From Lysinibacillus pakistanensis (GTDB lineage Bacteria > Bacillota > Bacilli > Bacillales_A > Planococcaceae): DNA of 64,000 nt. Location: positions 2,478,501-2,542,500 of the forward strand of contig NZ_CP126101.1 in NCBI RefSeq assembly GCF_030123245.1, given 5' to 3'. How positions within the stretch are numbered: position 1 is the first letter of the stretch; each line of letters begins with the position of its first letter. Shown here in pieces: positions 29,783 through 45,702 of the stretch. The notes beneath the pieces are model-generated. The model had not been told where the DNA came from. It saw nothing but the letters and a program-made list of their open reading frames with translations, and ran no database searches. The position numbers and the translations under genes were made by a program.

Positions 29783-29987
29783 ACAACTGAATAGCGTGTA
29801 ATAATAGGTGTAAATTGCGTGCAATTTACTGAAAAGGGAAGTCGGTGCAAATCCGACACTGTCCCGCAACTGTAAATGTGAGCGACTTTTCAAATACCAC
29901 TGTTTTCAACGGGAAGGGGAAAAGAAGCAATGACCATAAGTCAGGATACCTGCCTATTATGAGTACACACCATAACCCTACGAGGAA
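29783..29987. repeat. attL: left copy of the 205-bp direct repeat
   Basis: Identical to 45498-45702 over all 205 bp by direct comparison; the flanking bases differ (29782 A against 45497 G; 29988 A against 45703 T). It contains the full cobalamin aptamer and ends exactly after GAGGAA, the proposed antiterminator strand. The crossover point within it cannot be located. Confidence 0.95.
29799..29962 (+). promoter_or_regulatory. Cobalamin riboswitch aptamer (attL copy)
   Basis: P1 is formed by TAATAATAGG (29799-29808) and CCTATTATGA (29953-29962). Conserved core AAGTCGGTGCAAATCCGAC with CCCGCAACTGTAAA, and the B12 box AGTCAGGATACCTGCC at 29939-29954. Downstream lies the integrase, with a terminator just before it. 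Confidence 0.93.
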
Positions 29988-30104
29988 AGCATTTTTATTA
30001 GGAATGGTGATGTGCTACAAACGCTGGCATGTCAATGTTTTAGAGTATATACATATTGAAATTTAGGATAGTGGGGTCATATAGCCACCATTCTAATTAA
30101 CGAG

Positions 30105-30150
30105 GACACTTTCTTTAGATTAATGAATCTAAACGGGGGGTGTCTTTTTT
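30105..30150 (+). terminator. Terminator directly before the integrase, probable riboswitch platform
   Basis: GACACTTTC pairs with GGGGGTGTC (three G-U pairs), continuing into TTAGATT/AATCTAA, followed by TTTTTT and at once the integrase GTG. The integrase ribosome site (GGGGGGTG) lies in the 3' arm. AGGAAAG at 29983-29989, at the end of the repeat, can pair with CTTTCTT (30109-30115) in the 5' arm, giving a plausible antiterminator for a cobalamin-off switch. Confidence 0.6.
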
Positions 30151-31065
30151 GTGATATTAAAATTTGCTATACAAGATTTTTTAGACGAAAAGGAACTGCA
30201 AAATCTAAGTAAATATACATTGCAAAGTTACAAGGCTTTTTTTAGAGAATTTAAAAGATGGTTATATGAAAAAGAGATAGTTGACGTAGATGATATTACA
30301 CCTTCTGTTATCAAAAGTTATCTACTTTATTGTAAAAATGAACGTGGAAACTCAGCGCCTACCATAAATACAAAGTTGAAACACTTGAGAGCTTTTTTTA
30401 ATCATTTACAAGATAATGAGTTTTTATTGAAAAATCCAATAATCAAAATAAGCAGGATGAAAGAAGATACTCAAATTGAAGTATTTACTGATGCCCATAT
30501 TAGAAAAATGCTGGCATATTACAGGAGAACAAAAGGAAAGGATAAGCAATTTATAGCGTTTAGAAATAGCTGCATTATCACAACGTTACTCGGCACGGGA
30601 ATACGCATCGGAGAGTTATTAAATTTACAGTGGTCGGATATTGATTCAGTAAACTACTTAATGACTATCTATGGTAAAAATCGTAGACAAGAAACTGTCC
30701 CGCTTACATCAAAGGTGTTACAAGAGTTACTGGAATATAAGCTTTTTTGTGAAAGGCACTTTGGTACATTATCAAATTTTGTGTTTGTAAAGTATATCAA
30801 TACACAAATGACTTACGATTCTATTAAAAATATGTTTAAAAAGTTACAAGAAGTAATGAACTTTAGTGATGTTCGACTTTCTGCACATACGTTTAGACAT
30901 ACTTTTAGTCACCGATTTTTGATGTCGGGTGGAGACGTTTTCACGCTTCAAAAAATTTTAAGACACAAAAATCTCAGTATGACAGAAAAGTACCTTGCGC
31001 TATGGGGAACGGCACTACACGAACAGAATGAGAAATACAATCCGTTGAATGATTTTGACTTATAG
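30151..31065 (+). CDS. int: Tyrosine recombinase / integrase of the satellite
   Basis: 304 residues. An N-terminal SAM-like core-binding domain (about 5-90, with LSKYTLQSYKAFFREFKRWL) precedes the catalytic domain with R152 (TGIRIGELLNL), K176, H246-x-x-R249 (HTFRHTFSHRF), H272 (LRHKNLSM) and the nucleophile Y281 (TEKYLAL). All catalytic residues are present. It is XerC/D-like in length. The start is GTG, abutting the T run of the terminator hairpin. It should catalyse recombination in the riboswitch repeat. A terminator follows at 31078-31108. Confidence 0.92.
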   Translation: MILKFAIQDFLDEKELQNLSKYTLQSYKAFFREFKRWLYEKEIVDVDDITPSVIKSYLLYCKNERGNSAPTINTKLKHLRAFFNHLQDNEFLLKNPIIKISRMKEDTQIEVFTDAHIRKMLAYYRRTKGKDKQFIAFRNSCIITTLLGTGIRIGELLNLQWSDIDSVNYLMTIYGKNRRQETVPLTSKVLQELLEYKLFCERHFGTLSNFVFVKYINTQMTYDSIKNMFKKLQEVMNFSDVRLSAHTFRHTFSHRFLMSGGDVFTLQKILRHKNLSMTEKYLALWGTALHEQNEKYNPLNDFDL

Positions 31066-31077
31066 ATAAAAGAAAAA

Positions 31078-31108
31078 GCCTAGCGCTCACAACGCTAGAC
31101 CTTTCTTA
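31078..31108 (+). terminator. Integrase terminator
   Basis: CTAGCG/CGCTAG stem with a seven-base loop, followed by ACCTTTCTTATT, just past the integrase stop codon. Confidence 0.6.
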
Positions 31109-31110
31109 TT

Positions 31111-31690
31111 CCGATTTAACACAAATATGCCCGCCAGCATAAGTGTTTCACTCACAACTAAAAATGAGCGATTAAATATGCCTTCATTCTACTTCAAAAA
31201 AATTAGAATGTCAAAGGCCTGTTTTCCTATTGTCTTTTTTAGGAACGCTCACTGACGAGAAGCCGTTAAGCGTCATTAAAAAACACGTCAGGTTACGCCG
31301 AGCCAACGCAGTAAATTCGGCTAGGACACATTATGCGAGTTCCTTGTTTTTCGCAGTGTCTGAATGTGGTTGACGCACATAATCGGTCAGGAGTGGAAGA
31401 TCTGAGTGGCTACGGTCACACAGGGTACATCACATAACGCAATTTTATGACAAATCATAATCCAGTGTAACTATCGGGGGCAGAAGTAGATTAGTAGATG
31501 TATCGATTCGAAAGGATCACGATTAAACAAGGGCATACAATACGGATACCTTAATTGAGGATTCATGGAATCGGCTGTCTATGTTAGTTGATTCTTTTTT
31601 TGAGTCTCTAACGTAGGCAACCGAAATTAGCACCAAGCCGTTTTCCTTATCTCGGCTTCATGATGTTTGAAGTAGCTAATAAAAGTCAAG
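31111..31690. ncRNA. Candidate large structured non-coding RNA
   Basis: About 580 bp without a convincing ORF, distinctly richer in G+C than its neighbours. Several nested hairpins are visible around 31250-31400: AACGCT...AGCGT enclosing TGACG/CGTTA; GCCGA/TCGGC; and GGACAC/GTGTCT enclosing TGCGA/TCGCA. Large ornate RNAs such as GOLLD and ROOL are known from phages and related elements. Membership in those families is not shown; strand is not determined, though hairpins were read on the plus strand. Confidence 0.35.
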
Positions 31691-31699
31691 AAATTTGTA

Positions 31700-32053
31700 T
31701 TATTTAAACGCTATTTCTATAAAAATAATATAGGCATCGGTCAGTATAAAGAATATACCAAATATTAAAAGTAATAAGCCTATATATAATAAAACTGTCC
31801 AATAAGAAGAATCAGTCTTTACATAGTGTTTAAAAGCCCAAATAGCAAGACCAAAAATATAACCATTTAAAGTTATAAAGAAGGAGGTTAAGATGAATAA
31901 GACCCCAATTTGAAAAACAGTAACGTTAGTTAAAAAATTTTGCGTTACATTTAACACAGTCAACAAAGATATGCCTGAAAGGGTAGTCAAACTAGCGAAA
32001 AAATTGATCTTATCAATCCTTTTTAAATCTTTAAATTCATTAAAAAAATTCAT
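31700..32053 (-). CDS. Hypothetical three-helix membrane protein
   Basis: 117 residues with hydrophobic segments near 17-35, 45-70 and 84-115. The N-terminus is charged (FNEFKDLKRIDKINF). No ribosome site as strong as its neighbours was seen (only a purine-rich GGCGGT context). No family recognised. Small membrane proteins in this position of satellites can be superinfection-exclusion or defence proteins, but nothing here proves it. Confidence 0.5.
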   Translation of the reverse strand: MNFFNEFKDLKRIDKINFFASLTTLSGISLLTVLNVTQNFLTNVTVFQIGVLFILTSFFITLNGYIFGLAIWAFKHYVKTDSSYWTVLLYIGLLLLIFGIFFILTDAYIIFIEIAFK

Positions 32054-32752
32054 AATCTACCGCCTAATTGTGAAAATGATATAAGAATTATTTATATTTT
32101 ACCATTTTAATAACAAGAAAATAAGTGCTTTTATGTTGTAATTTGAACAGGGCGGCGCACTCAACGCGACGGTGACATCAGCCGAACCGGATTATCTTTC
32201 TTGTTCCTTAACATCGCTCTTTCAGCCTTGTTTTGCGAACAAGGTAGATAATTTTGCGGTCAGCCTTCCGCTCTAGTTCAATCAGCCAAAATTATAATAA
32301 AAAGTAAATAGATTTATACCAAAAATGTAAGAAATATAGAATCTATTATTAACAAAAGAATGTACTATTTGATAATGGGGGGGGTGATTTCGTGGAGAAA
32401 TGGAACGAAAAAGTTGTTGAGCTACTTGTAGATTTAAATAGTCTAAAAAGGGCGGAAAGAGTCATAAGTAAATAGTCAAGAAATAAATACTATCGAAGAA
32501 TTTTCGATAGGGACATTTATAAGTGAAAAAACCACCTATTAAGCAGAAAATTTATATTTAATATTTTAGATGATTTTATAAAATTAGCAGTTGAAGATTA
32601 TTTTAAGGAAAGAATCTATTTATAATTAATAAGCAAAGCTAGGGAAAAATAATAGATTGCTCTTTATTACTTTATAAGATTTTAGTTAGGGATTAATTTG
32701 AAAGTAAGTTATAATTTGTATGTTAAAATAATTTTAGAAAGGAGGTAATATA
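32054..32752. other. Gene-free region with a GC-rich hairpin block
   Basis: A GC-rich island at about 32150-32285 contains a long closed structure: CCGGATTATCT pairs with AGATAATTTTGCGG-type sequence around an inner hairpin CCTTGTTTTGCGAACAAGG. After it, AT-rich DNA includes a start-less frame reading WNEKVVELLVDLNSLKRAER, a possible fragment resembling the start of the protein at 33701. No gene is supported. Confidence 0.35.
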
Positions 32753-32938
32753 ATGACAGAAAAAAAACCTTATCAAAATAATAGAGAACAAAAGCGAGAT
32801 TATAGGGAAGATTATAGAGAACATTATAATGAAAAAATAGAAAAAGGCAGTAATTATGAAGCGTTAAGAGAACATGATAATAGTAGTCTTGTAAGCTTAT
32901 TGAGCCAAATTGAATCTGAAAAAGATAAGAAAAAATGA
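32753..32938 (+). CDS. Small highly charged protein
   Basis: 61 residues, rich in Glu, Lys, Arg and Tyr (NREQKRDYREDYREHYNEKI), probably helical and cytosolic. AAGGAGG precedes the ATG with good spacing. Its stop overlaps the start of the next gene (ATGA), so the two form a coupled pair. No family recognised. A pair of a small charged cytosolic protein and a membrane-anchored protein could be an accessory (defence or toxin-antitoxin) module, by position only. Confidence 0.6.
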   Translation: MTEKKPYQNNREQKRDYREDYREHYNEKIEKGSNYEALREHDNSSLVSLLSQIESEKDKKK

Positions 32939-33465
32939 GCGACATTATCGCAGTAATTGGAGGATTAAGTAGTTTTGTATCTTTAATTTTGGCTGGAGTA
33001 ATAGCTTGGATTGGTGTTAGTCAATCAAAAAAGAAAGACACTGATAGATTTTATGAATATTTAGAAATAATGATTAATTTAAAAATGGAGCTTGAAATTG
33101 CGTTAGCATCATATGTCTCTCAAGATGACTTAGAAGCTTTTAACAATTTAAATACAAGATACACAGCTTTTGTAAACTACTTAGATTATTTTTCGGCGAA
33201 AATAATAAATCAGAATTTATTTAACAACAAAGCATTTAAACAATTCCAAGGTGAAACCCATCAAGGTTTAAAAGAATGGGCGATAATACAGTTAAGAATT
33301 TATGGGATAATAGAAGAATTGAAATTTAATAAATTTGGAATAACTTCATCTTCAACTACAAGAAAATCTAATCTAAGGAACACTTATAAACTATTAAAGC
33401 TTACTCTTCCTAGTAAGGATTATGAAGAGATACAAGATTCATGTAGGAAGTATGGATTATTTTAA
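32935..33465 (+). CDS. Membrane-anchored hypothetical protein
   Basis: 176 residues. One membrane segment at about 5-27 (VIGGLSSFVSLILAGVIAWI), then a helical cytosolic domain beginning SKKKDTDRFYEYLEIMINLK. No catalytic motif was recognised. The four-base overlap with the preceding small gene shows translational coupling. Confidence 0.6.
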   Translation: MSDIIAVIGGLSSFVSLILAGVIAWIGVSQSKKKDTDRFYEYLEIMINLKMELEIALASYVSQDDLEAFNNLNTRYTAFVNYLDYFSAKIINQNLFNNKAFKQFQGETHQGLKEWAIIQLRIYGIIEELKFNKFGITSSSTTRKSNLRNTYKLLKLTLPSKDYEEIQDSCRKYGLF

Positions 33466-33700
33466 ATTAATTACTTGAGGCTTTTTTAGAATTATTTTTA
33501 TATTCTATATAAAAATAAAAAGCATTTCTAAGTAGTTGGCCCCCGTTTCAACGAATTTAATTACGGTTTTTCATTTTATGTAATGCCGTTAATATTTCCT
33601 TATGCGAGAAGAAATCCCCTAATGAAATATATTTGACAACAATATTATTGAAAAAAATAGCAGGATCATAAATAGAATATCTATAAAGGAGTTAATATAT

Positions 33701-34123
33701 ATGGTAAAGGATAATTGGGTTGAAAAGCTTAGCGAAAAAGTAATAGATGCAAACAGAGTTGATGAATTTTCGGATGTTCAAAACGTTGTGAGTTATGTAG
33801 ACGAAATAATCCAGTCTACATTTAATATTGATAAATTAGAAGGAAAAAACTTTAGATATAGTAAAACCAATAAATCTATCCAGTTGTCGATCTTTGATAA
33901 ACAGTTGAGTATATTTGCTCAAGAATATGAAGAATTGGTAGCAATAAAGGTCGGGAGTGTAAGTAATCCTAATGATATTAAAGTTGTTGGTGTAATCACT
34001 ATGTATGATGGTAGCTTCAATTATCCAGAGGGTATTAAAAAGGAAAAATTTAATAAATGGCATATAGAGAGTATATTAAAGGAAAACTTTCAAATAAGAG
34101 AAGAAGTATTTAGTTTTGAATAA
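33701..34123 (+). CDS. Hypothetical protein of the satellite
   Basis: 140 residues, mixed alpha/beta, no membrane segments. It begins MVKDNWVEKLSEKVIDANRV, with AAAGGAG ten bases before the ATG. No family recognised. It stands alone, converging on the repressor gene, with a terminator downstream. Confidence 0.5.
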   Translation: MVKDNWVEKLSEKVIDANRVDEFSDVQNVVSYVDEIIQSTFNIDKLEGKNFRYSKTNKSIQLSIFDKQLSIFAQEYEELVAIKVGSVSNPNDIKVVGVITMYDGSFNYPEGIKKEKFNKWHIESILKENFQIREEVFSFE

Positions 34124-34133
34124 AATTATTTAA

Positions 34134-34166
34134 ACGCCTAGTAAATTTAAACTAGGCGTCTTTTTT
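34134..34166 (+). terminator. Terminator between convergent genes
   Basis: ACGCCTAGT/ACTAGGCGT stem with a T run; the right part overlaps the last codons of the minus-strand repressor gene. Confidence 0.8.
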
Positions 34167-34514
34167 GTCGTTATCGAAAACAATATCATAAGGGTTACCG
34201 CCGGACATAATTTCACTCTCCGGTAAAAATGATAATAGTTGAGTTATATCAGTTATATTCATCGCTGCAGCAATTTTTTCTAGCGTTGGTATGTGTAGTC
34301 GCTCAATATTACCTCGACATAACTGACTGATTGTTGCTTGTCGAACTCCACTCATATCAGCAAGCTGCTGTTGAGTTAATCCACGTTCTTTCATTCGAGC
34401 CTTTAAATGAAAAATAATATGAACCGGATCATATTCTGGCTCATCATTATCATCTTGTGCATATAAGGCTTTTAATGCTTCTTCACCTGTTAAATAATCA
34501 CTCACTTTATTCAC
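34152..34514 (-). CDS. XRE-family repressor of the satellite
   Basis: 120 residues. The helix-turn-helix occupies about 35-90: LKARMKERGLTQQQLADMSG, then VRQATISQLCRGNIERL and LEKIAAAMNITDITQLL. The N-terminal 30 residues are acidic. It is transcribed away from the gene at 34675, with three related operators between them, the layout of a phage CI-type or SaPI Stl-type switch. In satellites a helper-phage protein commonly relieves such a repressor; the inducer here is unknown. Confidence 0.85.
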   Translation of the reverse strand: MNKVSDYLTGEEALKALYAQDDNDEPEYDPVHIIFHLKARMKERGLTQQQLADMSGVRQATISQLCRGNIERLHIPTLEKIAAAMNITDITQLLSFLPESEIMSGGNPYDIVFDNDKKDA

Positions 34515-34539
34515 CTCAATTAAAGCTTACCATACTTTT

Positions 34540-34649
34540 ATACGTTTATGCGAATAAAATGTTGACATGTGATATTTTTAAAGTTATTATACTCTTAAGC
34601 GTATGAAATGACGCATATTTTTTTCTAAAAGTTATACTCTTAAACGTAT
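34540..34649. promoter_or_regulatory. Three-operator switch region with a divergent promoter
   Basis: Operators: ATACGTTTATGCGAAT (34540-34555), ATACTCTTAAGCGTAT (34589-34604, near-perfect palindrome) and ATACTCTTAAACGTAT (34634-34649). A rightward promoter TTGACA (34562-34567), 17 bp, TATTAT (34585-34590) overlaps the second operator. Repressor bound there would block rightward transcription of the lytic-type genes. Confidence 0.75.
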
Positions 34650-34674
34650 AAAAGGATATCAGGAGGTTGGTAAA

Positions 34675-35094
34675 ATGGTCAAAATTGTAAAAGAAGGACA
34701 CTGGTTATCTGAAAATGGTTTATGGGGCATTGAATATCGTGTAGTGCTGATTAAAAAAACTGGTACGTATTCACAAGAAATATGGGTAACTCGACGTAAT
34801 ATAAAAGGGAAACACGTTCGTACAAAGAAAGTGGTTCCGCGCTATGTTAAAGAAATGATAGATAAATATAGTAGAAAGTGTAAAGAGTGTGTTGCTCGAT
34901 TAGTTGAGGTTAGAGAGGTACAGGTACTTACTGCAAAGGCCGAAAATAATTCTTGGCAAACTGTGCTTACTCTAGGTGAAAGTGAGAATAAGATATTTTA
35001 TTTAAACGAGTCTACTTATGTTATAAGAAACGACTTCTACAATGCATTAATTGTCAATGAAAGGGAGCATTGTTTGTTGGAGGTGGTTTTATGA
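34675..35094 (+). CDS. First rightward gene of the satellite switch, unknown
   Basis: 139 residues, basic N-terminal half (HWLSENGLWGIEYRVVLIKK, then RRNIKGKHVRTKKVVP) and a pair of cysteines (KCKECVARL) in the middle. No family recognised. AGGAGG precedes the ATG. It is first in the operon controlled by the three-operator region, the position of the Cro/Str or induction gene in other satellites, but no helix-turn-helix is evident. Its stop overlaps a small downstream ORF. Confidence 0.6.
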   Translation: MVKIVKEGHWLSENGLWGIEYRVVLIKKTGTYSQEIWVTRRNIKGKHVRTKKVVPRYVKEMIDKYSRKCKECVARLVEVREVQVLTAKAENNSWQTVLTLGESENKIFYLNESTYVIRNDFYNALIVNEREHCLLEVVL

Positions 35095-35189
35095 AGGAAA
35101 AGTTAATGAGACAAGCTCCTGTGACTGCAAAATCGTACACAAAAGCATACCTACGATTATTAACGCAAGCTGTTTTCAATAGTTGGTAG
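35091..35189 (+). CDS. Very small protein, coupled to the previous gene
   Basis: 32 residues, basic, ending YLRLLTQAVFNSW. The ATG overlaps the upstream TGA (ATGA) and GGAGGTGG lies just before it inside the previous gene. Its TAG in turn overlaps a TTG start of the next small ORF. No family. Confidence 0.4.
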   Translation: MKEKLMRQAPVTAKSYTKAYLRLLTQAVFNSW

Positions 35190-35320
35190 TTCCTCAAAAA
35201 AAGTTTGATGCGTTCTTCTTTGGACCGAATGGAGAAGAAGGAGAACTTAGAAAGTGGTATTACGGAACGATAGCATTCTCGATTGCAGTAGTTTTGTTTA
35301 TATATGGGATGAAAAATTAA
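35183..35320 (+). CDS. Possible small single-span membrane protein
   Basis: 45 residues from TTG 35183, with a charged N-terminal half (FFFGPNGEEGELRKWYYGT) and one membrane segment (AFSIAVVLFIYGM). It overlaps the previous stop codon and has no independent ribosome site, so it relies on coupling. Tentative. The 267 bp that follow, to 35587, contain no gene I can support. Confidence 0.35.
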   Translation: MVVPQKKFDAFFFGPNGEEGELRKWYYGTIAFSIAVVLFIYGMKN

Positions 35321-35587
35321 TTTTCGTAAAAGTGTACGGATCAGGAAATGTTTCTATATTAGATAAGTAGAAAGGATAAATATTAAGTTGTCACAAAATC
35401 GATATAAAAAGGCTTTCTGAAAGTGCGCCAAACGGAAATTTTTTGTATATAAGTCAGTAGGAATAATTTTATAAAAAGTGATATCAAATTAAGATTTTAC
35501 CGGGCAGTAGGTAGTAGGAGGCAATTCCGTCGAGCGGTCGGCGTTTATATACCAAATAAAAACTAATTAACTAAGGGAGAGATTATT

Positions 35588-36199
35588 ATGTTATTCGAAA
35601 AAGCATTTTTAGTAAAAGAAGTTAAAGGCGGTAATTTTGCAATTGTGACTGCAGTAAGCAAGTCAAAAGCAATTATCCAGGGCGTAGAGGCTTTCCGATG
35701 TGAAAAAAGTGACGTAGAGATATTTGATTTTAATAAGTTAGGGAGAATGGGAAAAGATTTCATGCAAGTTTTGAAGTTATATACTCACATGAAGGTATTG
35801 GGTGAGCATAGTGGGGAAATTGGAGATGTATTTCTAAATCAAAATGACATCCTCCATAGAATGATTAACGGTAACGAGCCATCGTGGGTGTTAAAATTAG
35901 AGGTTAAATCTTTAGATGAGAAGCTACAACAGCTTCGTGATATTCCGATTCTTAATAAAAAAATACGTATTGATCGAAATGATATCATCAAGGGTTTCAC
36001 TGTAATTAATGATAGATTACTTAGTCTGGACTATGAAGAAGCTGCATATTATCTAGCTTTAACTCAAAGACTAATTGGTTTATTTTTCAGCAAAGTAACA
36101 CCGGAAATAGATGGGTTCTTGGAGAAGATGTCAGGACTTATCTCAAAACTTAGCGCATCCCAAATCGAATTATTAGAGCAAATGGAAATACTTGCATGA
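35588..36199 (+). CDS. Hypothetical protein of the satellite
   Basis: 203 residues, mostly helical, no membrane segments, no family recognised. It begins MLFEKAFLVKEVKGGNFAIV, behind AAGGGAGAG. Its stop overlaps the start of the next small gene (ATGA). It opens the replication-type operon with the Rep-like protein. Confidence 0.55.
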   Translation: MLFEKAFLVKEVKGGNFAIVTAVSKSKAIIQGVEAFRCEKSDVEIFDFNKLGRMGKDFMQVLKLYTHMKVLGEHSGEIGDVFLNQNDILHRMINGNEPSWVLKLEVKSLDEKLQQLRDIPILNKKIRIDRNDIIKGFTVINDRLLSLDYEEAAYYLALTQRLIGLFFSKVTPEIDGFLEKMSGLISKLSASQIELLEQMEILA

Positions 36200-36363
36200 A
36201 AACGAAAGCTATCCGATCACTACGGCTTGCCAACGAGCTTGCCGCTAGTGGTCATCGCATATTACGTACAGAACCTTGCCGTAATTTACCTGGCTATCAA
36301 GTGTTTATCTTTGAAGATTCGCCCGCATTACAAGCGATATTGACACACTCAAGCAGACGATAA
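36196..36363 (+). CDS. Small DUF5659-like protein
   Basis: 55 residues: an N-terminal helix SLRLANELAASGHRILRTEP, then a strand NLPGYQVFIFEDSPALQAIL. This helix-strand-strand layout resembles the small DUF5659 proteins found in mobile elements; function unknown. Coupled to the preceding gene by an ATGA overlap and missed by length cut-offs. Confidence 0.5.
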   Translation: MKTKAIRSLRLANELAASGHRILRTEPCRNLPGYQVFIFEDSPALQAILTHSSRR

Positions 36364-36409
36364 TGATGATCCGCAGCCAATCTATTAAACTGCTAAAGGA
36401 GAAGATAAT

Positions 36410-36895
36410 GTGACGGAAACTATAAAAGATGTACAAAAGGCTTTGCCTTACGACTATGATGGCGGTTGGGTAGCTGTTCAAAATGCTGTTTTAACCGTTT
36501 ACACGTTACACCCGGATTTTAAAGCAACGACTTTGTTAGTTTACGCGTATTTGTTAAAGAACTATAACATCGGGCGGCGATACAGTTGGCCTTCGTTTGA
36601 CGCGATGGAAATAGATTTAAATATAAGTCGTGGTACTATATCCGCAGCCACTCAAACGTTATGTGATTTAGGTATGATTAATATTTTTAAGCGTGGTTCG
36701 CGTGGTAGCCATGCTTATACATTCAATGTGTTGATTGATGACGAGGTAGAGTTTATCACACGATTCCCGGATGCGATTCCGAATTACGAGAAGAAGTTGG
36801 CTAAGGTCGAGCGTATCGATGCGAAAAAAGCTGCATTTGATAAGTTGATTCCGGTACGTGGTCAAGATATTGAATTGTCACAGTCTGATTTTTAG
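36410..36895 (+). CDS. Winged-helix replication-initiation-like protein
   Basis: 161 residues starting at GTG 36410 after AAAGGAGAAG. A winged helix-turn-helix is visible at about 40-110: TLLVYAYLLKNYNIGRRYSW, then ISRGTISAATQTLCDLGMIN and the wing IFKRGSRGSHAYTF, as in HTH_36 and DnaD/RepA-type N-terminal domains of small plasmids and satellites. Directly downstream lie three iteron-like repeats, which supports a role in replication initiation. It may instead be a transcription factor. Confidence 0.6.
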   Translation: MTETIKDVQKALPYDYDGGWVAVQNAVLTVYTLHPDFKATTLLVYAYLLKNYNIGRRYSWPSFDAMEIDLNISRGTISAATQTLCDLGMINIFKRGSRGSHAYTFNVLIDDEVEFITRFPDAIPNYEKKLAKVERIDAKKAAFDKLIPVRGQDIELSQSDF

Positions 36896-38075: not shown

Positions 38076-38137
38076 CCCATTTTATTTTAAGCACCTAGTG
38101 TCAAAATTAAACAACTAAATACAAAGGAGGACAAGTG

Positions 38138-38380
38138 ATGAAACCGCACATGATTAAGGCATTGCGATCGTATTACGGTTTGACGCAAGGAGAGTTCGCT
38201 TCACAGGTCGGCTTCGCTCGAACAACAATTAGTGAAGTGGAGAACATGCGGAAATATCCGTCTGCAGCGTTGTTAGCCGCTATCACTCGACAGTTTGAAA
38301 TTACAGATGAGTTTGTAGCTTTTTTGCGTGATTTCGAAAAAATAAATGGAATTATCCATAATTACACATTAACAAATTAA
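38138..38380 (+). CDS. Small XRE-family DNA-binding protein
   Basis: 80 residues, nearly all helix-turn-helix: IKALRSYYGLTQGEFASQVG, then FARTTISEVENMRKYPSAAL. ATG 38138 follows AAAGGAGGA with seven bases spacing. Probably a transcriptional regulator of the late satellite genes downstream. Confidence 0.75.
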   Translation: MKPHMIKALRSYYGLTQGEFASQVGFARTTISEVENMRKYPSAALLAAITRQFEITDEFVAFLRDFEKINGIIHNYTLTN

Positions 38381-38801: not shown

Positions 38802-38975
38802 ATGCAGATATATTACAGCAATGATAGCGGTGAGCATTGCGTTTACATCGACGAAGGTGAGCGACAACGCCGCATATTTTTACCACCGGAAGTAGCTACG
38901 CTTGATGCTCGATATTTTGTGCAATCAGAGGCAGCTAATTACGTAATTCAACAGCTTTTAAAAGGCGACGATTAG
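38802..38975 (+). CDS. Hypothetical small protein
   Basis: 57 residues: MQIYYSNDSGEHCVYIDEGE, then RRIFLPPEVATLDARYFVQS and a helix to the end. The next gene starts at the base after its TAG, so they are coupled. It is too short for many gene callers. No family recognised. Confidence 0.5.
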   Translation: MQIYYSNDSGEHCVYIDEGERQRRIFLPPEVATLDARYFVQSEAANYVIQQLLKGDD

Positions 38976-39401
38976 ATGCGCTTTGCCTTGCTATCAATCG
39001 TTGCCTTGCGAGAGGTTCCGTTCCTGTCACTATTAATTTACGAAACTGACGAACGGGGCATATCTACTCTAATTGGCGAAATTTCAAAGCCTTATGACGA
39101 TTTGATCGACTTGCTAGACGATTTATATGCGTATGAAATAAACGAGCTGCAGACGGATAGTCAAGAGTTGTATCACGACTTAATGAGCGCTCAGTATCCA
39201 GTGATTTATCGGCGTGAAGTCGAAGGGACGCGTGAGCAGATTACCCGTTACGAGGAAATGTTAGTCGAATTATTCGAGTTGGACAAGCAAGACGAACAGC
39301 CAACGCCTGTTATTCCGATGTGGCGATTGTGGTGTATCGACAAGTTAGAAAATATTATTCAAATACTGAAAACAAAGGGGATAAAACTAGATGACAATTA
39401 A
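38976..39401 (+). CDS. Hypothetical acidic protein
   Basis: 141 residues, strongly acidic in the middle (YDDLIDLLDDLYAYEINELQ). Starts immediately after the previous stop and ends 11 bases inside the next gene. No family recognised; context is the late operon of the satellite. Confidence 0.5.
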   Translation: MRFALLSIVALREVPFLSLLIYETDERGISTLIGEISKPYDDLIDLLDDLYAYEINELQTDSQELYHDLMSAQYPVIYRREVEGTREQITRYEEMLVELFELDKQDEQPTPVIPMWRLWCIDKLENIIQILKTKGIKLDDN

Positions 39402-40068
39402 GACACACGAATTTAAATTATTGCAAGATTACAGAGAAGAAGGCGCTGTACGAGCAGAGAAACACCAGCAGTATCAAACAGACTTAGCAAATGCTCGCGC
39501 ACGTCTAAGTGAGTTGCAGACGCAGTATGAGGTTACGTTTACAGAAAGCGTTAAACAAGGTACAGATGCAACTGAGCAACTCACTAAAATTGACGATGAC
39601 ATCGCACTACAAAAAGAGGTTGTCATACGTCGGGAGCGCGATGCCCGTTTAGCACATGCAGCTATGCCCGAAGGTAAGATTTCGTCTGTAGACGTAGTCA
39701 ATGAATACGTAGATGTGTTTGTACCAAAAGTTAGAGCGGAGTATGAACCGATTGTCGATGCAAAATTAAAAATGGCGAGGGATTTGCTAATTAGCTGTAT
39801 TATTGATCACCGCGATGGTGAAGATGCTTACGGATATTTACGTGAAGAAATAGCTGAAATAACTAGAGCAAATCGTAGTCAAGGTAAAACGAGTGAGAGT
39901 CCGACAATAGCGCATCCAACAAGTACCGCGAAAGTTATGGGGAGACAAGGGGCTATAGGTGGAGTGCGTGAAGTAATCAATCAGATTAGTTTGTTTACAA
40001 ACGGCCATAAGCCCAACGATTTTGAATATATCGCAGAAGTACCAAAAAAGACTAAGGGAGCGAAATAA
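39391..40068 (+). CDS. Coiled-coil hypothetical protein
   Basis: 225 residues. Residues 1-90 are a probable coiled coil (YREEGAVRAEKHQQYQTDLA, then RARLSELQTQYEV). The C-terminal third is Thr/Ser/Gly-rich with a final helix. It lies upstream of the tape-measure gene; a scaffold- or tail-assembly-like role is possible but not shown. It overlaps the preceding gene by 11 bases. Confidence 0.5.
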   Translation: MTIKTHEFKLLQDYREEGAVRAEKHQQYQTDLANARARLSELQTQYEVTFTESVKQGTDATEQLTKIDDDIALQKEVVIRRERDARLAHAAMPEGKISSVDVVNEYVDVFVPKVRAEYEPIVDAKLKMARDLLISCIIDHRDGEDAYGYLREEIAEITRANRSQGKTSESPTIAHPTSTAKVMGRQGAIGGVREVINQISLFTNGHKPNDFEYIAEVPKKTKGAK

Positions 40069-40070
40069 TT

Positions 40071-40319
40071 ATGAGCAAATATAACGAACAAGTAGAAGCA
40101 TTACAGGCGCAGCAAGCGAAGGGTAAAGGTACTAATTTCCGCGCTTTAGAATATGGCTTAAAGCAGAAATTGCAAGACGGTACAATTCAGCAACAGGACG
40201 TAGCGATCGCATTACAAGTCGCAAGTGCAATTGGTTCGTTGAGTTCGCGTGTTTTATACGCAAACGTTAAACGAGCCGCACAACAGTCAGTGGAACAAAC
40301 GGAAAAGGTAGGTAGATAA
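40071..40319 (+). CDS. Small protein, paralogue of the next gene
   Basis: 82 residues. The C-terminal part DVAIALQVASAIGSLSSRVL and YANVKR align with DISAAMQMARVSGLDSDRVL and YAQIKR in the following protein, so the two arose by duplication. Three bases separate it from the previous stop. No family recognised. Confidence 0.6.
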   Translation: MSKYNEQVEALQAQQAKGKGTNFRALEYGLKQKLQDGTIQQQDVAIALQVASAIGSLSSRVLYANVKRAAQQSVEQTEKVGR

Positions 40320-40321
40320 TT

Positions 40322-40510
40322 ATGACAAATTACAATATCGTGCGTACAGAACTAACAAAACTTTTAGAGGCTGAAACAGTTACTCGTGAAGACATTTCTG
40401 CAGCAATGCAAATGGCTCGCGTATCAGGTTTAGATAGTGATCGAGTTCTATATGCACAAATTAAACGACAAGTTGAAGCAAATGAAGAAAAAGAATCAAC
40501 GACAAACTGA
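40322..40510 (+). CDS. Small protein, paralogue of the previous gene
   Basis: 62 residues, shorter at the N-terminus than its neighbour but sharing the helical core and the RVLYAQIKR end. Only three bases separate the two. Tandem duplicated small proteins just ahead of tail genes may be structural or anti-host, but no evidence decides. Confidence 0.55.
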   Translation: MTNYNIVRTELTKLLEAETVTREDISAAMQMARVSGLDSDRVLYAQIKRQVEANEEKESTTN

Positions 40511-40597
40511 ATACCGCAATATTAACGCAAAAGGCATGACGTTTTAATCGACGTTGTGTCTTTTTCTATTCATAAAACCACTAGGGGGATATAAGGG

Positions 40598-40918
40598 ATG
40601 GAATTAACTGCCGAACAACAACTAGCAATCATAAAAGATGCGGGCTTACTCGCAATTAACTCGTTGCCACCTAACTTTTTCAGAGCAAACGGTGGTCACA
40701 AAGATAGGATGAGAGAACTTGAATCATTAAAATTCCAACTTAATGGAGTTGTTGATCCTGAACTAACTAAGCTATCGAGCGATGTTAAAGAATCAATTGA
40801 ATTAGTAGTTAAATTTTTAAGGACAAATAAAGAGAAATTTAGAAAACAGGCTCTTAGACAAAGTGACGATGTTTTTGCGGAGATCATAAAAGTCTCCGAG
40901 CGTACTGGGGGCTTCTGA
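40598..40918 (+). CDS. Hypothetical helical protein before the tape measure
   Basis: 106 residues, helical, with LSSDVKESIELVVKFLRTNK. GGGGGAT precedes the ATG. Its TGA ends at 40918 and the tape-measure ATG follows one base later. In tailed phages this position holds the tail-assembly chaperone; sequence similarity to those was not recognised. Confidence 0.5.
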   Translation: MELTAEQQLAIIKDAGLLAINSLPPNFFRANGGHKDRMRELESLKFQLNGVVDPELTKLSSDVKESIELVVKFLRTNKEKFRKQALRQSDDVFAEIIKVSERTGGF

Positions 40919-40919
40919 T

Positions 40920-43139
40920 ATGGCCGTAAATTTGACAGCCGTGTTTCGTGTACGTGATCAAGGCACATCGCGTCTTAGACGAATCACTCAGATGATGGAG
41001 CAAATGAACCGTGCAAGCAGAACAACTGGCGATAGTATGTCGAGAGCGCAATCGGCAACCAACCGTTTTGGTGGTGCAGTTTCTTCGGCATCAAATCGTA
41101 TGGGTGGATTTGCAACTCGAGTTACTTCATTGCGCGTAGGTGCAAACGGACTTAGTGCGTCGTTACGTGGGATGCAATCCGCATTAATAGGGCTAGCTGG
41201 CGCATACGTAGGAGCGAACGGTGCTGCTAAATTGCTAAATTTGACAATTGGGGCTGCAGCAAACTACGAGCAAAATGCGATGGCCATTAGCGGTATGTTT
41301 GGCGATGATAAGCAAGCAAAAAAGTACCTTCAAATGGTTGAGAAGGCTGCAATTGATAGTCCGGTATTGAACAGTACGGATATGATGACAAACTCAAAAG
41401 CATTCATAGGAATCAGTAAGAACCTTGATGAATTAAAACAAGTTTGGGGACTAGTTGAACGTATACAGGCGCTTTCAGGCGTAGACACTCAACAGGCGGC
41501 TTTCTCAACAAAAGAGCTTATGCAAGGTGACTACGTTTCAATGTACGAGGCAGTCGGACTAGATAAAAAGGAATTGCAAAAAATCACTAAAATGGACGGC
41601 ATGTCTGCTAAGATGGCCGGTTTGGATAAATTATTAACCAAAATGGGCGTTACAGATGAAATGGTTAATAAGATGGGAAATACGACAAAAGGATTGTGGT
41701 CTCAACTCGAAGAGAAGTCACAAACGTTCTTCAGAAACATGGGAATGGAAAGTAATACAAAGCTAGGAGAATTTTTAAGGCGACTAAATAAAATGTTTGA
41801 CGGTCTTGATACGACATCTATCAGTAATAAATTGGGAGGGATGCTTGCTAAAGCCACAGACAAAGCGATTGCTTTATACGATATTTTCGTGAAATGGCGA
41901 ACACAAATAGCTTACGTAGCAGGAGCGATTGGTACGTTTGTAGCTGCGTTAGCTGTAGTAGGAACAATTTCTGCGTTGGCAAATCCAGTCTCGTTAATTG
42001 CTGCAGGAATAGCCGCAGCAGCAATCGGATTCAAAGCGCTTTATGACAATAGCGAAACCTTCCGTGGAGCTATCGACGGTATCGTCAGCAAAGTAAAAGA
42101 GCTATGGTCCGCATTTAAGGGCGGAGGTACAAGTGGGTTGATAAATGCGCTATTCCCACCGGATATTGCCAAACAAGTTAATTCTGTAGTAGACGGAATC
42201 AAGTCGAAAATGGCGGAACTGACAGAGGCCTTTAAGACAGGTGGCGTTGGCGGAGTTTTTGATAAAATTTTCGGAGAAGGTTCGTTCGAAACAATTAAAA
42301 CGAAGTTCGAAGAATTTAGAACGTATGCTACCGAAAAATTTAGTCAACTCAAAGGCGTTTTTGGGCGACTGAAAGAAACGTTCTCCCAAGCGTTTTCCAC
42401 TATCGCCGACATCATTTCGAATGTATGGACGATTATCGAGCCATACCTAAGTGGATTCTGGAATATCCTACAGGTCATCGGAGATATTGCGATGATTGTT
42501 TTCAACAACGTAATCGCTCCGGCAATCTCGTTCCTAGTACAGTTATTCTCGACGTTATGGGCAATCGCAAAACCAATTCTTACGGCTTTAGGAATTGCTT
42601 GGGAGGCTTTATCTACGATAATTAAATGGGCTTGGGATAACGTTTTATCTCCGTTAGTAGACTTCATCCTAACTGGCGTTAAGAATGCGTTCGATGCTTT
42701 CTCAGACGCTCTATCAGTCGTACAAGGGTGGTTCGAATCATTAAGCGGATGGGTTTCGACTGCATACGGACATGTAAAAGACTTTATCGGATTTATCTCT
42801 AGCGCTAAGCTGCCGAGCTGGATTAGTAACGGAATCAGCGCGGGCGTAAACTTCGTCGGAAATATAATCGGTGCTGGCGACGATAAAAAAGGCGGTAAGA
42901 AATCTCATTATAGTGGACTAGATTCCGTACCCTATGACGGATATTCAGCGCGTCTCCACAAAGGTGAACGCGTTTTAACTGCGCGAGAGAATCGAGAATA
43001 TTCGGAAGGAAACGGTTCGGGCAGCATTTCAATAGCAAAACTTGCGGATCAGATAACAGTGCGTGAAGATGCCGATATAAATCGTATTGCTGACGCACTT
43101 GTAGCGAAAATACTAGAGAAACGAGGGGTGAGCGGATGA
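40920..43139 (+). CDS. Phage tail tape-measure protein
   Basis: 739 residues. The N-terminus (MAVNLTAVFRVRDQGTSRLR, then a coiled coil rich in Ser/Gly/Arg) and the tape-measure domain at about 105-300 (NYEQNAMAISGMFGDDKQAK, TKELMQGDYVSMYEAVGLDK) are typical. Hydrophobic helices lie at about 335-375 and 525-560, and the C-terminus carries the SGLDSVPYDGYSARLHKGER motif common at the end of tape-measure proteins. The protein sets tail length in siphoviruses and myoviruses. It is the only intact tail gene on the element and ends by overlap with a stump of the next tail gene. Confidence 0.88.
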   Translation: MAVNLTAVFRVRDQGTSRLRRITQMMEQMNRASRTTGDSMSRAQSATNRFGGAVSSASNRMGGFATRVTSLRVGANGLSASLRGMQSALIGLAGAYVGANGAAKLLNLTIGAAANYEQNAMAISGMFGDDKQAKKYLQMVEKAAIDSPVLNSTDMMTNSKAFIGISKNLDELKQVWGLVERIQALSGVDTQQAAFSTKELMQGDYVSMYEAVGLDKKELQKITKMDGMSAKMAGLDKLLTKMGVTDEMVNKMGNTTKGLWSQLEEKSQTFFRNMGMESNTKLGEFLRRLNKMFDGLDTTSISNKLGGMLAKATDKAIALYDIFVKWRTQIAYVAGAIGTFVAALAVVGTISALANPVSLIAAGIAAAAIGFKALYDNSETFRGAIDGIVSKVKELWSAFKGGGTSGLINALFPPDIAKQVNSVVDGIKSKMAELTEAFKTGGVGGVFDKIFGEGSFETIKTKFEEFRTYATEKFSQLKGVFGRLKETFSQAFSTIADIISNVWTIIEPYLSGFWNILQVIGDIAMIVFNNVIAPAISFLVQLFSTLWAIAKPILTALGIAWEALSTIIKWAWDNVLSPLVDFILTGVKNAFDAFSDALSVVQGWFESLSGWVSTAYGHVKDFIGFISSAKLPSWISNGISAGVNFVGNIIGAGDDKKGGKKSHYSGLDSVPYDGYSARLHKGERVLTARENREYSEGNGSGSISIAKLADQITVREDADINRIADALVAKILEKRGVSG

Positions 43140-43222
43140 GCATAGAGTTTTGGCTTTCATATAATAATAATGCAGAAAGTATGCGATTACCTGTCAATCC
43201 TAACGGCATTAGTGTTTCGTAA
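43136..43222 (+). pseudogene. Stump of a baseplate/LysM-type tail gene (XkdP-like)
   Basis: 28 codons: MSIEFWLSYNNNAESMRLPV, then NPNGISVS and a stop. This matches the first residues of the phage protein that follows the tape measure in PBSX-like tails (xkdP type, LysM-containing), which is normally over 200 residues. The ATG overlaps the tape-measure TGA as in the intact arrangement. The rest is absent, so the satellite captured the tape-measure gene with a piece of its neighbour. Confidence 0.6.
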
Positions 43223-43300
43223 ATAATTTAAACAAACGGGCAGGCATCGGCTATTAAAGCGTTGCTTGTCTTTTCTATTACAGCGAAAGAAGGCGAGTAA

Positions 43301-43840
43301 ATGGGACGTTTTCTAACGATTGAGGAATTAAGAGAGCGGATTAAACAGCTAGACGAGGAAAAGGAAGCGAGAGACATTGAACAAGGTTATTGTATCTTAC
43401 AGCAACCTTCATATAAGCCAGTCGTAAGTGATGTTTGGGCAGAAGAAGCGTATTACAAGTATTTGCCCGAAATTAATATATTTCTTGAAGAATACGCATC
43501 ACTATTACTTGAAGTAAAAGAAGTTTTCACAGGCGATTCACCGAAGCTACTGGAATGGCAAGCGTTATTAGATATTGCGTCAGAATGTAAAGACAGCTCA
43601 CTACGATTTAAATGCTTATTTATATCGAAAGTTTTTCTAAAGGCAGCGATTGAAGGCAAGTCACAATTAGATTATGCGAAGTTGGCAGAGATGATTGCTA
43701 ATAGTATCAACGATTATCCTTACCACGTTTATTATAAAGAACGCTATGACGATGGTTATGGTGAAGATAAACAAGGGACATTTTATGAATATTACGCAAT
43801 GAAAAGGGAGGAATTAGCGGAATGGCTACGCGAACACTAA
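43301..43840 (+). CDS. Hypothetical acidic protein upstream of terS
   Basis: 179 residues, acidic and helical, beginning with a coiled coil LRERIKQLDEEKEARDIEQ. The C-terminus overlaps the terS-like gene by 19 bases. No family recognised; its coupling to the terminase gene hints at a packaging-related role. Confidence 0.5.
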   Translation: MGRFLTIEELRERIKQLDEEKEARDIEQGYCILQQPSYKPVVSDVWAEEAYYKYLPEINIFLEEYASLLLEVKEVFTGDSPKLLEWQALLDIASECKDSSLRFKCLFISKVFLKAAIEGKSQLDYAKLAEMIANSINDYPYHVYYKERYDDGYGEDKQGTFYEYYAMKREELAEWLREH

Positions 43841-44232
43841 ACGAAATCTTAAAGAAATTAACAGCGGAACAGGTGAGAGCTGCAAACTTACTATTTGAGA
43901 ATGATATTTTACCACCGAAGCAACGCCGTACTTTTGAGCAGATTGCTGACGAACTAGGAATCGAAGTACGTACGCTATATAACTGGCGGAAACTAGACGC
44001 TATGTTAGATTACAAAGTCGCTATGACCGATACTTATACTAAGGAACATCGAGCGCGTATCATGAATGCAGTCATCCGTGAATCCGAGTTAGGTAACGCT
44101 TCAATGACGAAGTTATTCATGCAGAATCAGGGGATGCTAATCGACCGAGTGGAATATGAGGATAAATCGGAAAAAGTTGACGAATCCGCAGTGGCGGCTA
44201 AGTTAGCAAGTTTCAGAGCAAAGCATAAATAG
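43822..44232 (+). CDS. terS: Small terminase subunit-like protein (phBC6A51 type)
   Basis: 136 residues. The N-terminal helix-turn-helix QRRTFEQIADELGIEVRTLY followed by NWRKLDAM, a central SELGNASMTKLFMQNQGMLI and a C-terminal basic tail are typical of phBC6A51-type terminase small subunits. TerS recognises the packaging site; satellites carry their own to redirect the helper's large terminase, which is absent here. The gene is followed by a strong terminator and an 0.8-kb gap, where a cos or pac site could lie. Confidence 0.75.
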   Translation: MATRTLNEILKKLTAEQVRAANLLFENDILPPKQRRTFEQIADELGIEVRTLYNWRKLDAMLDYKVAMTDTYTKEHRARIMNAVIRESELGNASMTKLFMQNQGMLIDRVEYEDKSEKVDESAVAAKLASFRAKHK

Positions 44233-44270
44233 CGATATATCAACGCTTTAGAGCGGAAAAGTATTATATT

Positions 44271-44309
44271 GGCGGTGGTTGGCTTCGGCTGACTGCCGTC
44301 TTTTTTTTT
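44271..44309 (+). terminator. Terminator after terS
   Basis: A GC-rich stem (GGCGGT...GCCGTC outer, GTTGGC/GCTGAC inner) with a TTCG tetraloop and nine T. Confidence 0.9.
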
Positions 44310-45083
44310 GCGTTAAAGTGGCGTTGATGCTTCCGTTTAATTCCGAAATACGGAGAAACATCGGGCAGAAGGCGCTGGTGGACGCGCTACCTTGAAAACA
44401 AATCGTTATCTGACAATTTAACCGTTATTTTATACAGCATTTTATGCAGTATTGTAACAGATGTTCAAACAAAGGTAGTCGCAAGAAATGCAGTATATCA
44501 ATGATGTATAAAATTGTGTATAGCTTGTTGTTGCACGGAAGTAGCGAAACGTTGTCGTATCAACAGTTTGACATTGCTTTTAGTTTACATAATCTTATAT
44601 TATCGGAAGTTGAAAACGAATATTTATTCATTCTATATTCAATGCGTTGATTCAACGTTAACAATTTCGAAAATCCCCCAAGCCGCCTACTTCCTACAGG
44701 CGCTTTCTACTGTCCGATAATTACAGATACCTTTTTTAAAACAAGCCTTTTTTTTGCGATGTCATAGGCATCGAGAATCGTTGAATTGGATAGTTGTACG
44801 TGTGGAATCGTCTGAAAGCTTCTTATTGTGAGGTTATATATGTTATTTATTCCTATTTTAGGAATAGTATTATCTAGATTTAACTTGCGTCAATTTTGCG
44901 TTAAAAAAAAGAGCGTAGGAATCCCCATGCCCGTAACTCGTTTTTTAAATTCTACATAAATAATAGCCCAAAATAAAAGTGCCGTAAATACCTTTTTAAA
45001 TAGTTTGTTAATAAGTCTCCAAAGCCTATTTTCATGCGATTTCTTTCCGTATATACTCCGAATTATAAATGGAGGTGATACGG
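44310..45083. other. Gene-free right region of the satellite
   Basis: No supported gene. Visible: a short hairpin TCCGAAATACGGA near 44341-44354, a palindrome ATTCCTATTTTAGGAAT (44849-44865), and frames around 44444-44720 without ribosome sites that I reject. It is a good place for a packaging (cos/pac) site or an antisense RNA, but none can be identified by eye. Confidence 0.35.
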
Positions 45084-45389
45084 ATGTTAAAAAAAAGACA
45101 TTCGGTTAAGGACGTATTAAAGAAGCTAAATATTACGGACAAAACATTAACTAGTTACGCAGATTTAATGTGTGAAGTAGACGATAATTTTGCTGATTCA
45201 TTGAATAAGGTTAGAAAGTATAGTGGTAAAGAAATCGAGGTTATTCAATATATGCTGCGTAGAAAATCCGAGGGGGTTTTGAAAGAGATGGCGCGAGATG
45301 AAGCTGCAGAAGTATATTACGATCAAACTAAACTCGATGAAGTGTTGAACGAATTTCAGAAGTTGATAGATAAAATAAAGCAACGATGA
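45084..45389 (+). CDS. MerR/excisionase-like small protein near attR
   Basis: 101 residues from ATG 45084, after AATGGAGGTGA. The N-terminal part KRHSVKDVLKKLNITDKTLT, then SYADLM looks like a MerR-type helix-turn-helix, followed by a basic helix and a C-terminal coiled coil (DEVLNEFQKLIDKIK). Its place next to attR suggests an excisionase or directionality factor, but the similarity is weak. Confidence 0.5.
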   Translation: MLKKRHSVKDVLKKLNITDKTLTSYADLMCEVDDNFADSLNKVRKYSGKEIEVIQYMLRRKSEGVLKEMARDEAAEVYYDQTKLDEVLNEFQKLIDKIKQR

Positions 45390-45422
45390 TTAGTATTAGT
45401 TGTTTGTAAAATGTTGTGATAA

Positions 45423-45451
45423 TTGACTTTTGATTCACACACATTTACAAT
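45423..45451 (+). promoter_or_regulatory. Element-borne outward promoter at the right end
   Basis: TTGACT (45423-45428), exactly 17 bp, TACAAT (45446-45451), 47 bp before the right direct repeat and thus within the element. It mirrors the host promoter at 29688-29716 and reads through the attR aptamer into the host gene. In the excised circle it would read into the integrase. Confidence 0.75.
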
Positions 45452-45497
45452 TGATTTTAATAATCTATAAGGAATGTGGAGTACACTCGATTCCTTG

Positions 45498-45702
45498 ACA
45501 ACTGAATAGCGTGTAATAATAGGTGTAAATTGCGTGCAATTTACTGAAAAGGGAAGTCGGTGCAAATCCGACACTGTCCCGCAACTGTAAATGTGAGCGA
45601 CTTTTCAAATACCACTGTTTTCAACGGGAAGGGGAAAAGAAGCAATGACCATAAGTCAGGATACCTGCCTATTATGAGTACACACCATAACCCTACGAGG
45701 AA
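45498..45702. repeat. attR: right copy of the 205-bp direct repeat
   Basis: Identical to 29783-29987. Just before it lies AAGGAAT...ATTCCTT, a hairpin resembling the GTCGG...CCGAC hairpin that precedes the left copy. Confidence 0.95.
45514..45677 (+). promoter_or_regulatory. Cobalamin riboswitch aptamer (attR copy, host gene)
   Basis: Same aptamer as the attL copy; B12 box at 45654-45669. GAGGAA at 45697-45702 is complementary to TTCCTC (45856-45861) in the 5' arm of the terminator at 45850-45885, so an antiterminator/terminator switch controlling the gene at 45933 is plausible. Confidence 0.93.

Follow-up and report, generated by a model that had tools for sequence, protein, structure and literature searches.

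How can a mobile element use the regulatory leader of a gene as its attachment site and still leave such a leader in front of that gene? The question is raised by a locus of Lysinibacillus pakistanensis, within the 64,000-bp stretch of DNA analysed here (the window), at which two identical copies of a 205-bp direct repeat (29783-29987 and 45498-45702, both on the + strand) lie 15,715 bp apart. Comparison with RF00174 places a complete cobalamin (B12) riboswitch aptamer in each copy (29789-29971 and 45504-45686), scoring 124.8 bits (E 6.5e-31) against a curated threshold of 31.5 bits. The left copy (attL side) now stands 5' of an integrase gene and the right copy (attR side) 5' of a host gene; outside both repeat ends the two sides do not match each other, save for loosely similar upstream promoter stretches. 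The earlier note had described identical copies, each with an entire B12 aptamer, bounding a 15.7-kb unit with an intact tyrosine integrase beside one of them, and this anatomy is borne out, the aptamers being complete in sequence and presumably active. Direct attL/attR repeats with an integrase at one end mark the unit as an integrative element. A third B12 riboswitch occurs in the window at 49305-49491.

The integrase (30151-31065, + strand) is a XerC/D-like protein of 304 aa with a Phage_integrase domain (PF00589, 107 bits). R152, K176, H246, R249, H272 and Y281, which we take to be the catalytic residues (R-K-HxxR-H-Y) of a tyrosine integrase, are unchanged across a 17-row alignment, and domain and residues together identify the protein as a tyrosine recombinase. 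Its ribosome-binding site is overlapped by a hairpin (30102-30147, + strand; -19.5 kcal/mol, z -5.5), absent from the terminators listed by a consensus scan, which may insulate int against read-through.

The host gene 3' of the right copy (45933-46694, + strand) starts at +435 from the repeat start and encodes a 253-aa protein with no match in Pfam or NCBIfam. The uninterrupted riboswitch locus that the earlier note had expected to exist was found in congeners: in 23 of 24 single-copy genomes, all from other species of the genus, the same gene lies directly 3' of the riboswitch, at +416 to +467. Among them, G020 still has a decayed element end 5' of its riboswitch. The left-flank chemotaxis gene stops 152-160 bp short of the riboswitch in G016, G019 and G021; in G004, which has the riboswitch closest in sequence to that of the window, the distance is 784 bp.

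The riboswitch of this locus is also occupied in G025, G018 and, divided between two contigs, G027, by elements whose integrases are 97, 94 and 61% identical to that of the window; in G005 a 74% identical integrase accompanies a 246-bp exact repeat at a different B12 riboswitch; the earlier suggestion to look for related integrases beside B12 riboswitches elsewhere was thus fruitful. At all five occupied loci the integrase lies beside the left copy and identity ends within about 8 bp of CCTACGAGGA, and the left edge of identity is common to the four occupied copies of the window's locus. The product of the last element gene (45069-45389, + strand; 106 aa) has counterparts at the right ends of the elements in G018 (87%) and G025 (86%). 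Together, the uninterrupted congener sites and the integrase-bearing occupied loci support the claim of a single integration at a B12 riboswitch locus. An IMG/VR contig (G285) starts and finishes within the riboswitch, of which either end holds 127 bp, the two overlapping by 44 bp; this better fits the assembly collapse of an integrated copy's exact repeat than a circular form, and the contig was consequently not counted as a circle.

The promoters 5' of the two copies are unlike each other. Upstream of the left copy lies promoter region P2 (29662-29782, + strand), with TTGACA-17-TACAAT at 29688-29716, and upstream of the right copy lies P1 (45402-45497, + strand), with TTGACT-17-TACAAT at 45423-45451. 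The P2 site agrees with the consensus at 11 of 12 positions, and with 1 site against a mean of 2.6 in shuffles its scan alone is not above chance, while that of P1 (2 sites against 2.2) is at chance level; both regions are also assigned by homology, P2 being homologous to the sequences upstream of the left copy of G025 and of the right copy of G027. The types swap sides between species: in G027 they are reversed relative to the window, and in G018 the left type is different again. Because the promoters differ and trade places, a promoter of the element's own seems to arrive along with its riboswitch, and we read P1 as the one that the element carried. The earlier proposal that the element carries a full aptamer copy stands, with the amendment that a promoter seemingly travels with it.

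Since the repeat copies are identical, the crossover cannot be located from them, and candidate cores CCTACGAGGA (29977-29986 in the left copy and 45692-45701 in the right, + strand) were placed from the spacing of an arm-like motif in relatives. CCTACGAGGA is common to both B12 loci used by elements, and the core pattern behind a B12 box has 1-6 matches in each of 32 genus genomes. The motif, picked by eye and letter-for-letter identical to that of the tRNA user G444, lies 52-53 bp from CCTACGAGG (42 bp in G027), 42 bp from the SAM core in 4/4 cases and, for 5 of 11 tRNA rows, 54-55 bp from the tRNA core; in the other six tRNA rows and the six groEL rows, core and motif do not occur at the distance expected. 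In the window's genome (G000), G018, G025 and G285 the motif is no better than in shuffles, 513-951 of 1000 of which reach it, so that the core of the window's element is placed by homology with G005 and G027. The crossover may fall at the 3' edge of the leader, at CCTACGAGGA, rather than within the aptamer; of the integration inside a riboswitch that had been proposed, the riboswitch locus holds, and the point of exchange would move to this edge.

Dyads with a short centre resemble integrase cores, and a crossover within the aptamer, which would then be the core region, could have used the P5 hairpin (GTCGG-TGCAAAT-CCGAC). This dyad has a centre of 7 bp, is similar to the T arm of a tRNA and is, judged by eye, well conserved between both used B12 loci. 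We find this placement improbable, as the distance from the hairpin to int exceeds by >100 bp that between core and arm motif in the SAM and five tRNA relatives, and where tRNA repeats have a CTTGACAGG-type start (five cases), this start falls, by eye, at the anticodon loop and not at the T arm. Little credence is likewise given to an insertion upstream of P1, by which the element would have brought P2, riboswitch and int while the host kept P1 and its riboswitch, the repeat being carried along rather than serving as attachment site. Single copies in G004 and several other genomes are preceded by a P1-type promoter, and a natively P1-type G004 implies either an earlier replacement of the host promoter in the window or an insertion edge upstream of P1; however, the inverted types of G027 and the different left type of G018 argue against the latter, and G020, in which the element's right end is joined to P1 and its riboswitch, illustrates a route by which hosts could inherit P1.

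The identity of the copies has to be explained as well. Paired copies differ at 0/205 compared positions in the window's genome, 1/206 in G018, 0/206 in G027 and 0/153 in the part-masked G025, and the nearest copy from another genome differs at 3-9 of about 206 positions (G025 not being comparable). As paired copies are identical or nearly so and yet host-like, homogenisation with the host copy is the best account of the perfect match. Recent integration of an element already carrying the riboswitch of the same species would likewise yield identical copies without any conversion, but we regard it as unlikely, since it would have to hold for all five pairs (G000, G018, G025, G027 and G005), and the integrase-region DNA of the window is 92 and 87% alike to that of G025 and G018, against flanks only about 80-83 and 75-78% alike. 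That the pair arose by segmental duplication or from two unrelated insertions is scarcely credible: nothing beyond the bare repeat favours it, and the constant position of the integrase, the common edges and the uninterrupted sites contradict it.

Overall, we think it probable that a satellite-like element with a XerC/D-like integrase uses a B12 promoter-riboswitch leader as its attachment site and that the two copies are homogenised. The site would be the leader of a B12-regulated host transcription unit, and the right end of the element would carry a promoter of its own together with a full cobalamin riboswitch. Crossover by int, possibly at the conserved CCTACGAGGA, would place the host's old promoter-riboswitch 5' of int (attL) and that of the element 5' of the host gene (attR), which would thereby retain a B12-type leader, and RecA-type gene conversion between the copies would keep both identical and host-like. 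The element thus seems to replace the promoter and leader of the host gene rather than simply disrupt it. In G020 the new promoter seems to have stayed in place when the copy decayed, so that vitamin regulation may be undergoing re-wiring by mobile elements.

Relatives of the integrase extend this use of leaders to a second riboswitch class. A SAM-I leader is the landing site of four of them, and others land in tRNA genes or at a gene end (groEL). In the integrase tree, a change from tRNA genes to riboswitch leaders seems to have occurred twice; the 38 rows of the tree exclude G225 and G028:C21 (in-frame stop), L048 (partial) and L072, and include L046 and G297, apparently one record twice, on a zero branch, as well as two rows labelled 'unk' (G261 and L045) upstream of which groEL was found afterwards. 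Attachment-site assignments leave out G225, L048, G286 and G006; those made from the neighbourhood, without a repeat pair, are groEL in G261, L045 and G028:C21 and tRNA or tmRNA sites in G401, G594, G425 (by eye, from half a tRNA), G318, G308, G613, G498, G468, G323 and G279. An order-level search for relatives gave the same genomes as the family-level one. An FMN riboswitch near the 62% identical integrase of G006 was rejected as a further case: the integrase ORF is short (271 aa), the riboswitch stands about 890 bp off with a gene that we take to be ribU-like in between, and there is no second full copy of it.

Metabolite-sensing RNA leaders would accordingly serve as attachment sites much like tRNA genes, in two classes, B12 and SAM-I, apparently reached via two separate changes of integrase specificity, and this family offers a concrete route for tracing how an integrase changes its target class. 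A bolder proposal, that riboswitch leaders form a recurrent attachment-site class, with at least two transitions to it from tRNA genes, and that B12 level gates integrase expression and element movement, is conceivable but doubtful; gating is suggested because the carried riboswitch would precede int in both states, behind the host promoter when integrated and the element promoter when circular.

The gene content invites comparison with PICIs and other phage satellites, which the element resembles in its size of about 15 kb, its integrase, its HTH regulators (a Cro/C1-type one at 34152-34514, - strand, and another at 38135-38380, + strand), a replication-initiation or DnaD-like protein (36410-36895, + strand; weak matches) and a terminase small subunit-like protein (43822-44232, + strand; PHROGs, Pfam giving HTH_Tnp_1_2). 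The element differs from them in having a 739-aa tape-measure-like gene (40920-43139, + strand; 12 PHROGs matches, one labelled endolysin). PHROGs matches to head, portal or large terminase proteins were absent from the 20 of 24 picked ORFs scanned, so that a packaging gene is present without a full structural set and identification as a phage satellite is plausible. PADLOC gave no match at E 0.01 for nine element proteins. A DNA search of phage records with 29700-31065 found no match, and the 248 phage records with an integrase relative are all below 60% identity.

The earlier note knew of no described attachment site of this kind, a statement that has to be qualified. In a 2025 paper, GI-23 of Vibrio cholerae is placed in a cobalamin riboswitch (btuB; PMC12409358), and in the open-licence literature no other riboswitch site was found among the matches listed (including PMC7643969, PMC5644110, PMC8779076, PMC13239906, PMC12409358 and PMC9004378). 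GI-23 is, as here, a genomic island in a B12 riboswitch, in an unrelated host and likened by its published description; the passages on it are silent on repeats, a carried riboswitch, the integrase and other riboswitch classes. Other parallels are the elements at tRNA, tmRNA and gene-end sites, which share the integrase family, the attL/attR direct repeats and the carriage of part of the target. Relatives at tRNA genes and groEL bring along the 3' portion of an upstream gene, and the target gene is restored; in contrast, what the B12 and SAM-I elements bring is the 5' portion of a downstream gene, its promoter and leader, which at the B12 sites includes a complete aptamer.

The 205-bp repeat flanking the element is exact (29783-29987 and 45498-45702, with a spacing of 15,715 bp) and a full cobalamin aptamer, scoring 124.8 bits, lies inside each copy, which bears out the claim of the earlier note that two identical copies each hold an entire B12 aptamer. 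No tRNA gene was detected in the window by ARAGORN. Encoded at 30151-31065, the integrase belongs to the tyrosine recombinases; its best NCBIfam models, XerC and XerA/XerD, gave at most 150 bits, and since these scores fall under the curated cut-offs, it was considered a relative rather than a XerC.

The 205-bp query matched 45 of 61 genomes (E <= 0.001), many of the matches corresponding to other B12 riboswitches. Flanks were surveyed in 24 congeneric genomes that each have one strong copy, all from species other than that of the window. In 23 of them the 253-aa host gene (45933-46694 in the window) lies 416-467 bp beyond the start of the repeat, as compared with 435 bp for the window's right copy, the exception being G007 (2090 bp). 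The empty site proposed from the sequence is therefore found in other species as an uninterrupted riboswitch followed by the host gene, one of the 23 (G020) retaining a decayed element end upstream. The chemotaxis gene of the left flank ends 152-160 bp ahead of the riboswitch in G016, G019 and G021, 784 bp ahead in G004 and 1.2-6 kb away in G014, G022, G011, G031, G017 and G028; it was not found in the 3.4-7.8 kb of left flank searched in the other 14 genomes.

Integrase matches at E <= 1e-40 were identified in 17 of 261 genomes of the family, the nearest to the window's integrase being those of G025 (97%), G018 (94%), G005 (74%), G006 (62%, a short ORF) and G027 (61%). A cobalamin riboswitch adjoins the integrase in G025, G018, G005 and G027, the arrangement that the earlier note proposed to look for. 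The same locus as in the window is occupied in G018, G025 (copies partly masked) and G027 (copies split over two contigs), while G005 occupies another B12 riboswitch, where the exact repeat is 246 bp long and, by eye, takes in a promoter too. The anatomy of the B12 cases is absent in G006.

Within genomes, the two copies differ at 0 of 205 positions in the window's genome, 1 of 206 in G018 (at the edge), 0 of 206 in G027 and 0 of 153 unmasked positions in G025, whereas the nearest copy from another genome differs at 7 of 206 positions (window's genome to G004), 8 or 9 (G018) and 3 (G027 to G013); as the former differences are smaller, both copies track their host. Compared with the window, G025 and G018 show 92% and 87% identity in the DNA of the integrase region and about 80-83% and 75-78%, respectively, in the host flanks. 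These values suggest interspecies movement and then homogenisation of the copies, an inference tempered by the different rates at which genes evolve. Upstream, the promoter-type stretch P1 (45402-45497) adjoins the right copy in the window, G018 and G025 and the left copy in G027; P2 (29662-29782) adjoins the left copy in the window and G025 and the right copy in G027, and a third type precedes the left copy of G018. These types, together with G020, where the decayed right end of an element stands ahead of one full copy, are what would be expected if promoters were replaced through successive rounds of insertion and decay. Promoter hexamers of P1 and P2 were no more frequent than chance in consensus scans.

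Relatives further off show exact repeats at the groEL 3' end, the gene being recognised by eye from its Gly-Met tail; these measure 58-155 bp in G153, G162, G237, G113, G436 and L046/G297 (apparently one record) and 18 bp in L047. In G187, G095, G176 and G028 the repeats take in what looks like a promoter together with the opening bases of a SAM-I riboswitch and stop near CTTATCAAGAGAA (G176 has one mismatch); a full SAM riboswitch (89.8-94.1 bits) is present at the right copy, and scans covering the left copies found none there. The following gene is metA in G187, and its counterparts in the other three resemble it by translation. A class-level sample yielded integrase matches in 20 of 398 genomes and contributed 18 new genomes, 15 of which were searched for repeats: seven carry 39-100 bp repeats within tRNA genes, in five cases beginning at the anticodon loop, two have theirs at groEL, and no convincing pair was found in six. 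In a 38-row integrase tree, the B12 integrases group with the G006 remnant (100/100), neighboured by the tRNA/tmRNA-adjacent G498 (98/91), and the SAM integrases form a 100/100 group nested in the groEL-using group, whose neighbour is the tRNA user G520 (100/100). The midpoint root falls on a single, very long branch (G279) and several forks are unsettled, so that the tree suggests, as the likely reading, that riboswitch leaders were reached from tRNA genes on two separate occasions.

An arm-like motif, picked by eye and matching that of G444 exactly, stands 42 bp from the core in all four SAM rows and 54-55 bp from it in five of the 11 tRNA rows; in 6 B12 rows its distance to CCTACGAGG is 52-53 bp (42 in G027). 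The core match, the motif in place or a recognised int start is missing in six of the 11 tRNA rows, and the groEL rows (n = 6) have the motif at no fixed place. Among 15 rows shuffled 1000 times each, the motif was rare (0-38 per 1000) for G027, G005, all four SAM rows and four of the tRNA rows (by construction in G444), was reached in 138 shuffles for G594, and was common (513-951) for the window, G018, G025 and the IMG/VR contig G285. Because of the failing rows and this mixed control, the candidate crossover core at the 3' edge of the leader (29977-29986 and 45692-45701) is a working hypothesis. By pattern alone, B12-box-CCTACGAGGA occurs 1-6 times in every one of 32 genus genomes, against 0 in all for the reversed control, a spread that would allow one integrase clade to use several B12 loci.

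PHROGs was run on 20 of the 24 ORFs picked between the repeats, and the matches were to an integrase, two HTH regulators, a terminase small subunit, a tape-measure-like protein (one of its matches labelled endolysin) and, weakly, a replication/DnaD-like protein; large terminase, portal and capsid had no match among these 20, nor had nine element proteins in PADLOC. This content agrees with the phage satellite of the earlier note, and a decayed prophage may also account for it. Upstream of the right riboswitch copy of G005, ORFs resemble endolysin and holin by eye (L062 = G005:C1:2664000-2683000, 11540-12534), and this relative may be a full prophage.

In the integrated state the left repeat ends 163 bp ahead of int, whose ribosome-binding site is overlapped by a strong hairpin (-19.5 kcal/mol, z -5.5), with similar sequence by eye before int in G018, G025, G285 and G005. 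This hairpin, not among the terminators listed by a consensus scan, may shield int from read-through or belong to a switch. A short ORF-like stretch follows the left copies of the window, G018, G025 and G285 by eye; in the window an inverted repeat also follows and pairs with the leader end (29955-30060; -16.7 kcal/mol, z -3.7), and the fold of the right-copy counterpart is no more stable than its shuffles (z 0.18). Directly 3' of the right riboswitch, ahead of the 253-aa gene, lies a 43-aa ORF (45714-45845) whose start is conserved across the single-copy genomes compared, G007 excepted; a short ORF likewise follows the riboswitch at the other B12 locus of G005, by eye. Further downstream, at 46716-47117, a unit of 42 bp is repeated inside a Lys/Pro-rich repetitive ORF (five overlapping matches of 126 nt), and 47119-49059 encodes an EF-G-like protein that comes closest to the tetracycline ribosomal protection proteins (412.9 bits against a curated cut-off of 775). 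Because its gene occurs in all 24 single-copy genomes examined, it is probably a chromosomal homologue and not an acquired resistance gene.

The earlier note knew of no described attachment site of this kind. Among the matches listed in open-licence full texts there is one precedent, GI-23 of classical V. cholerae, placed in a cobalamin riboswitch according to PMC12409358; no other was found among them. Given this precedent, the element is assigned to the known site-restoring integrative kind rather than regarded as unprecedented, with riboswitch leaders of two classes (B12 and SAM-I) as targets and, in the B12 case, an entire promoter-aptamer unit that the element appears to carry.
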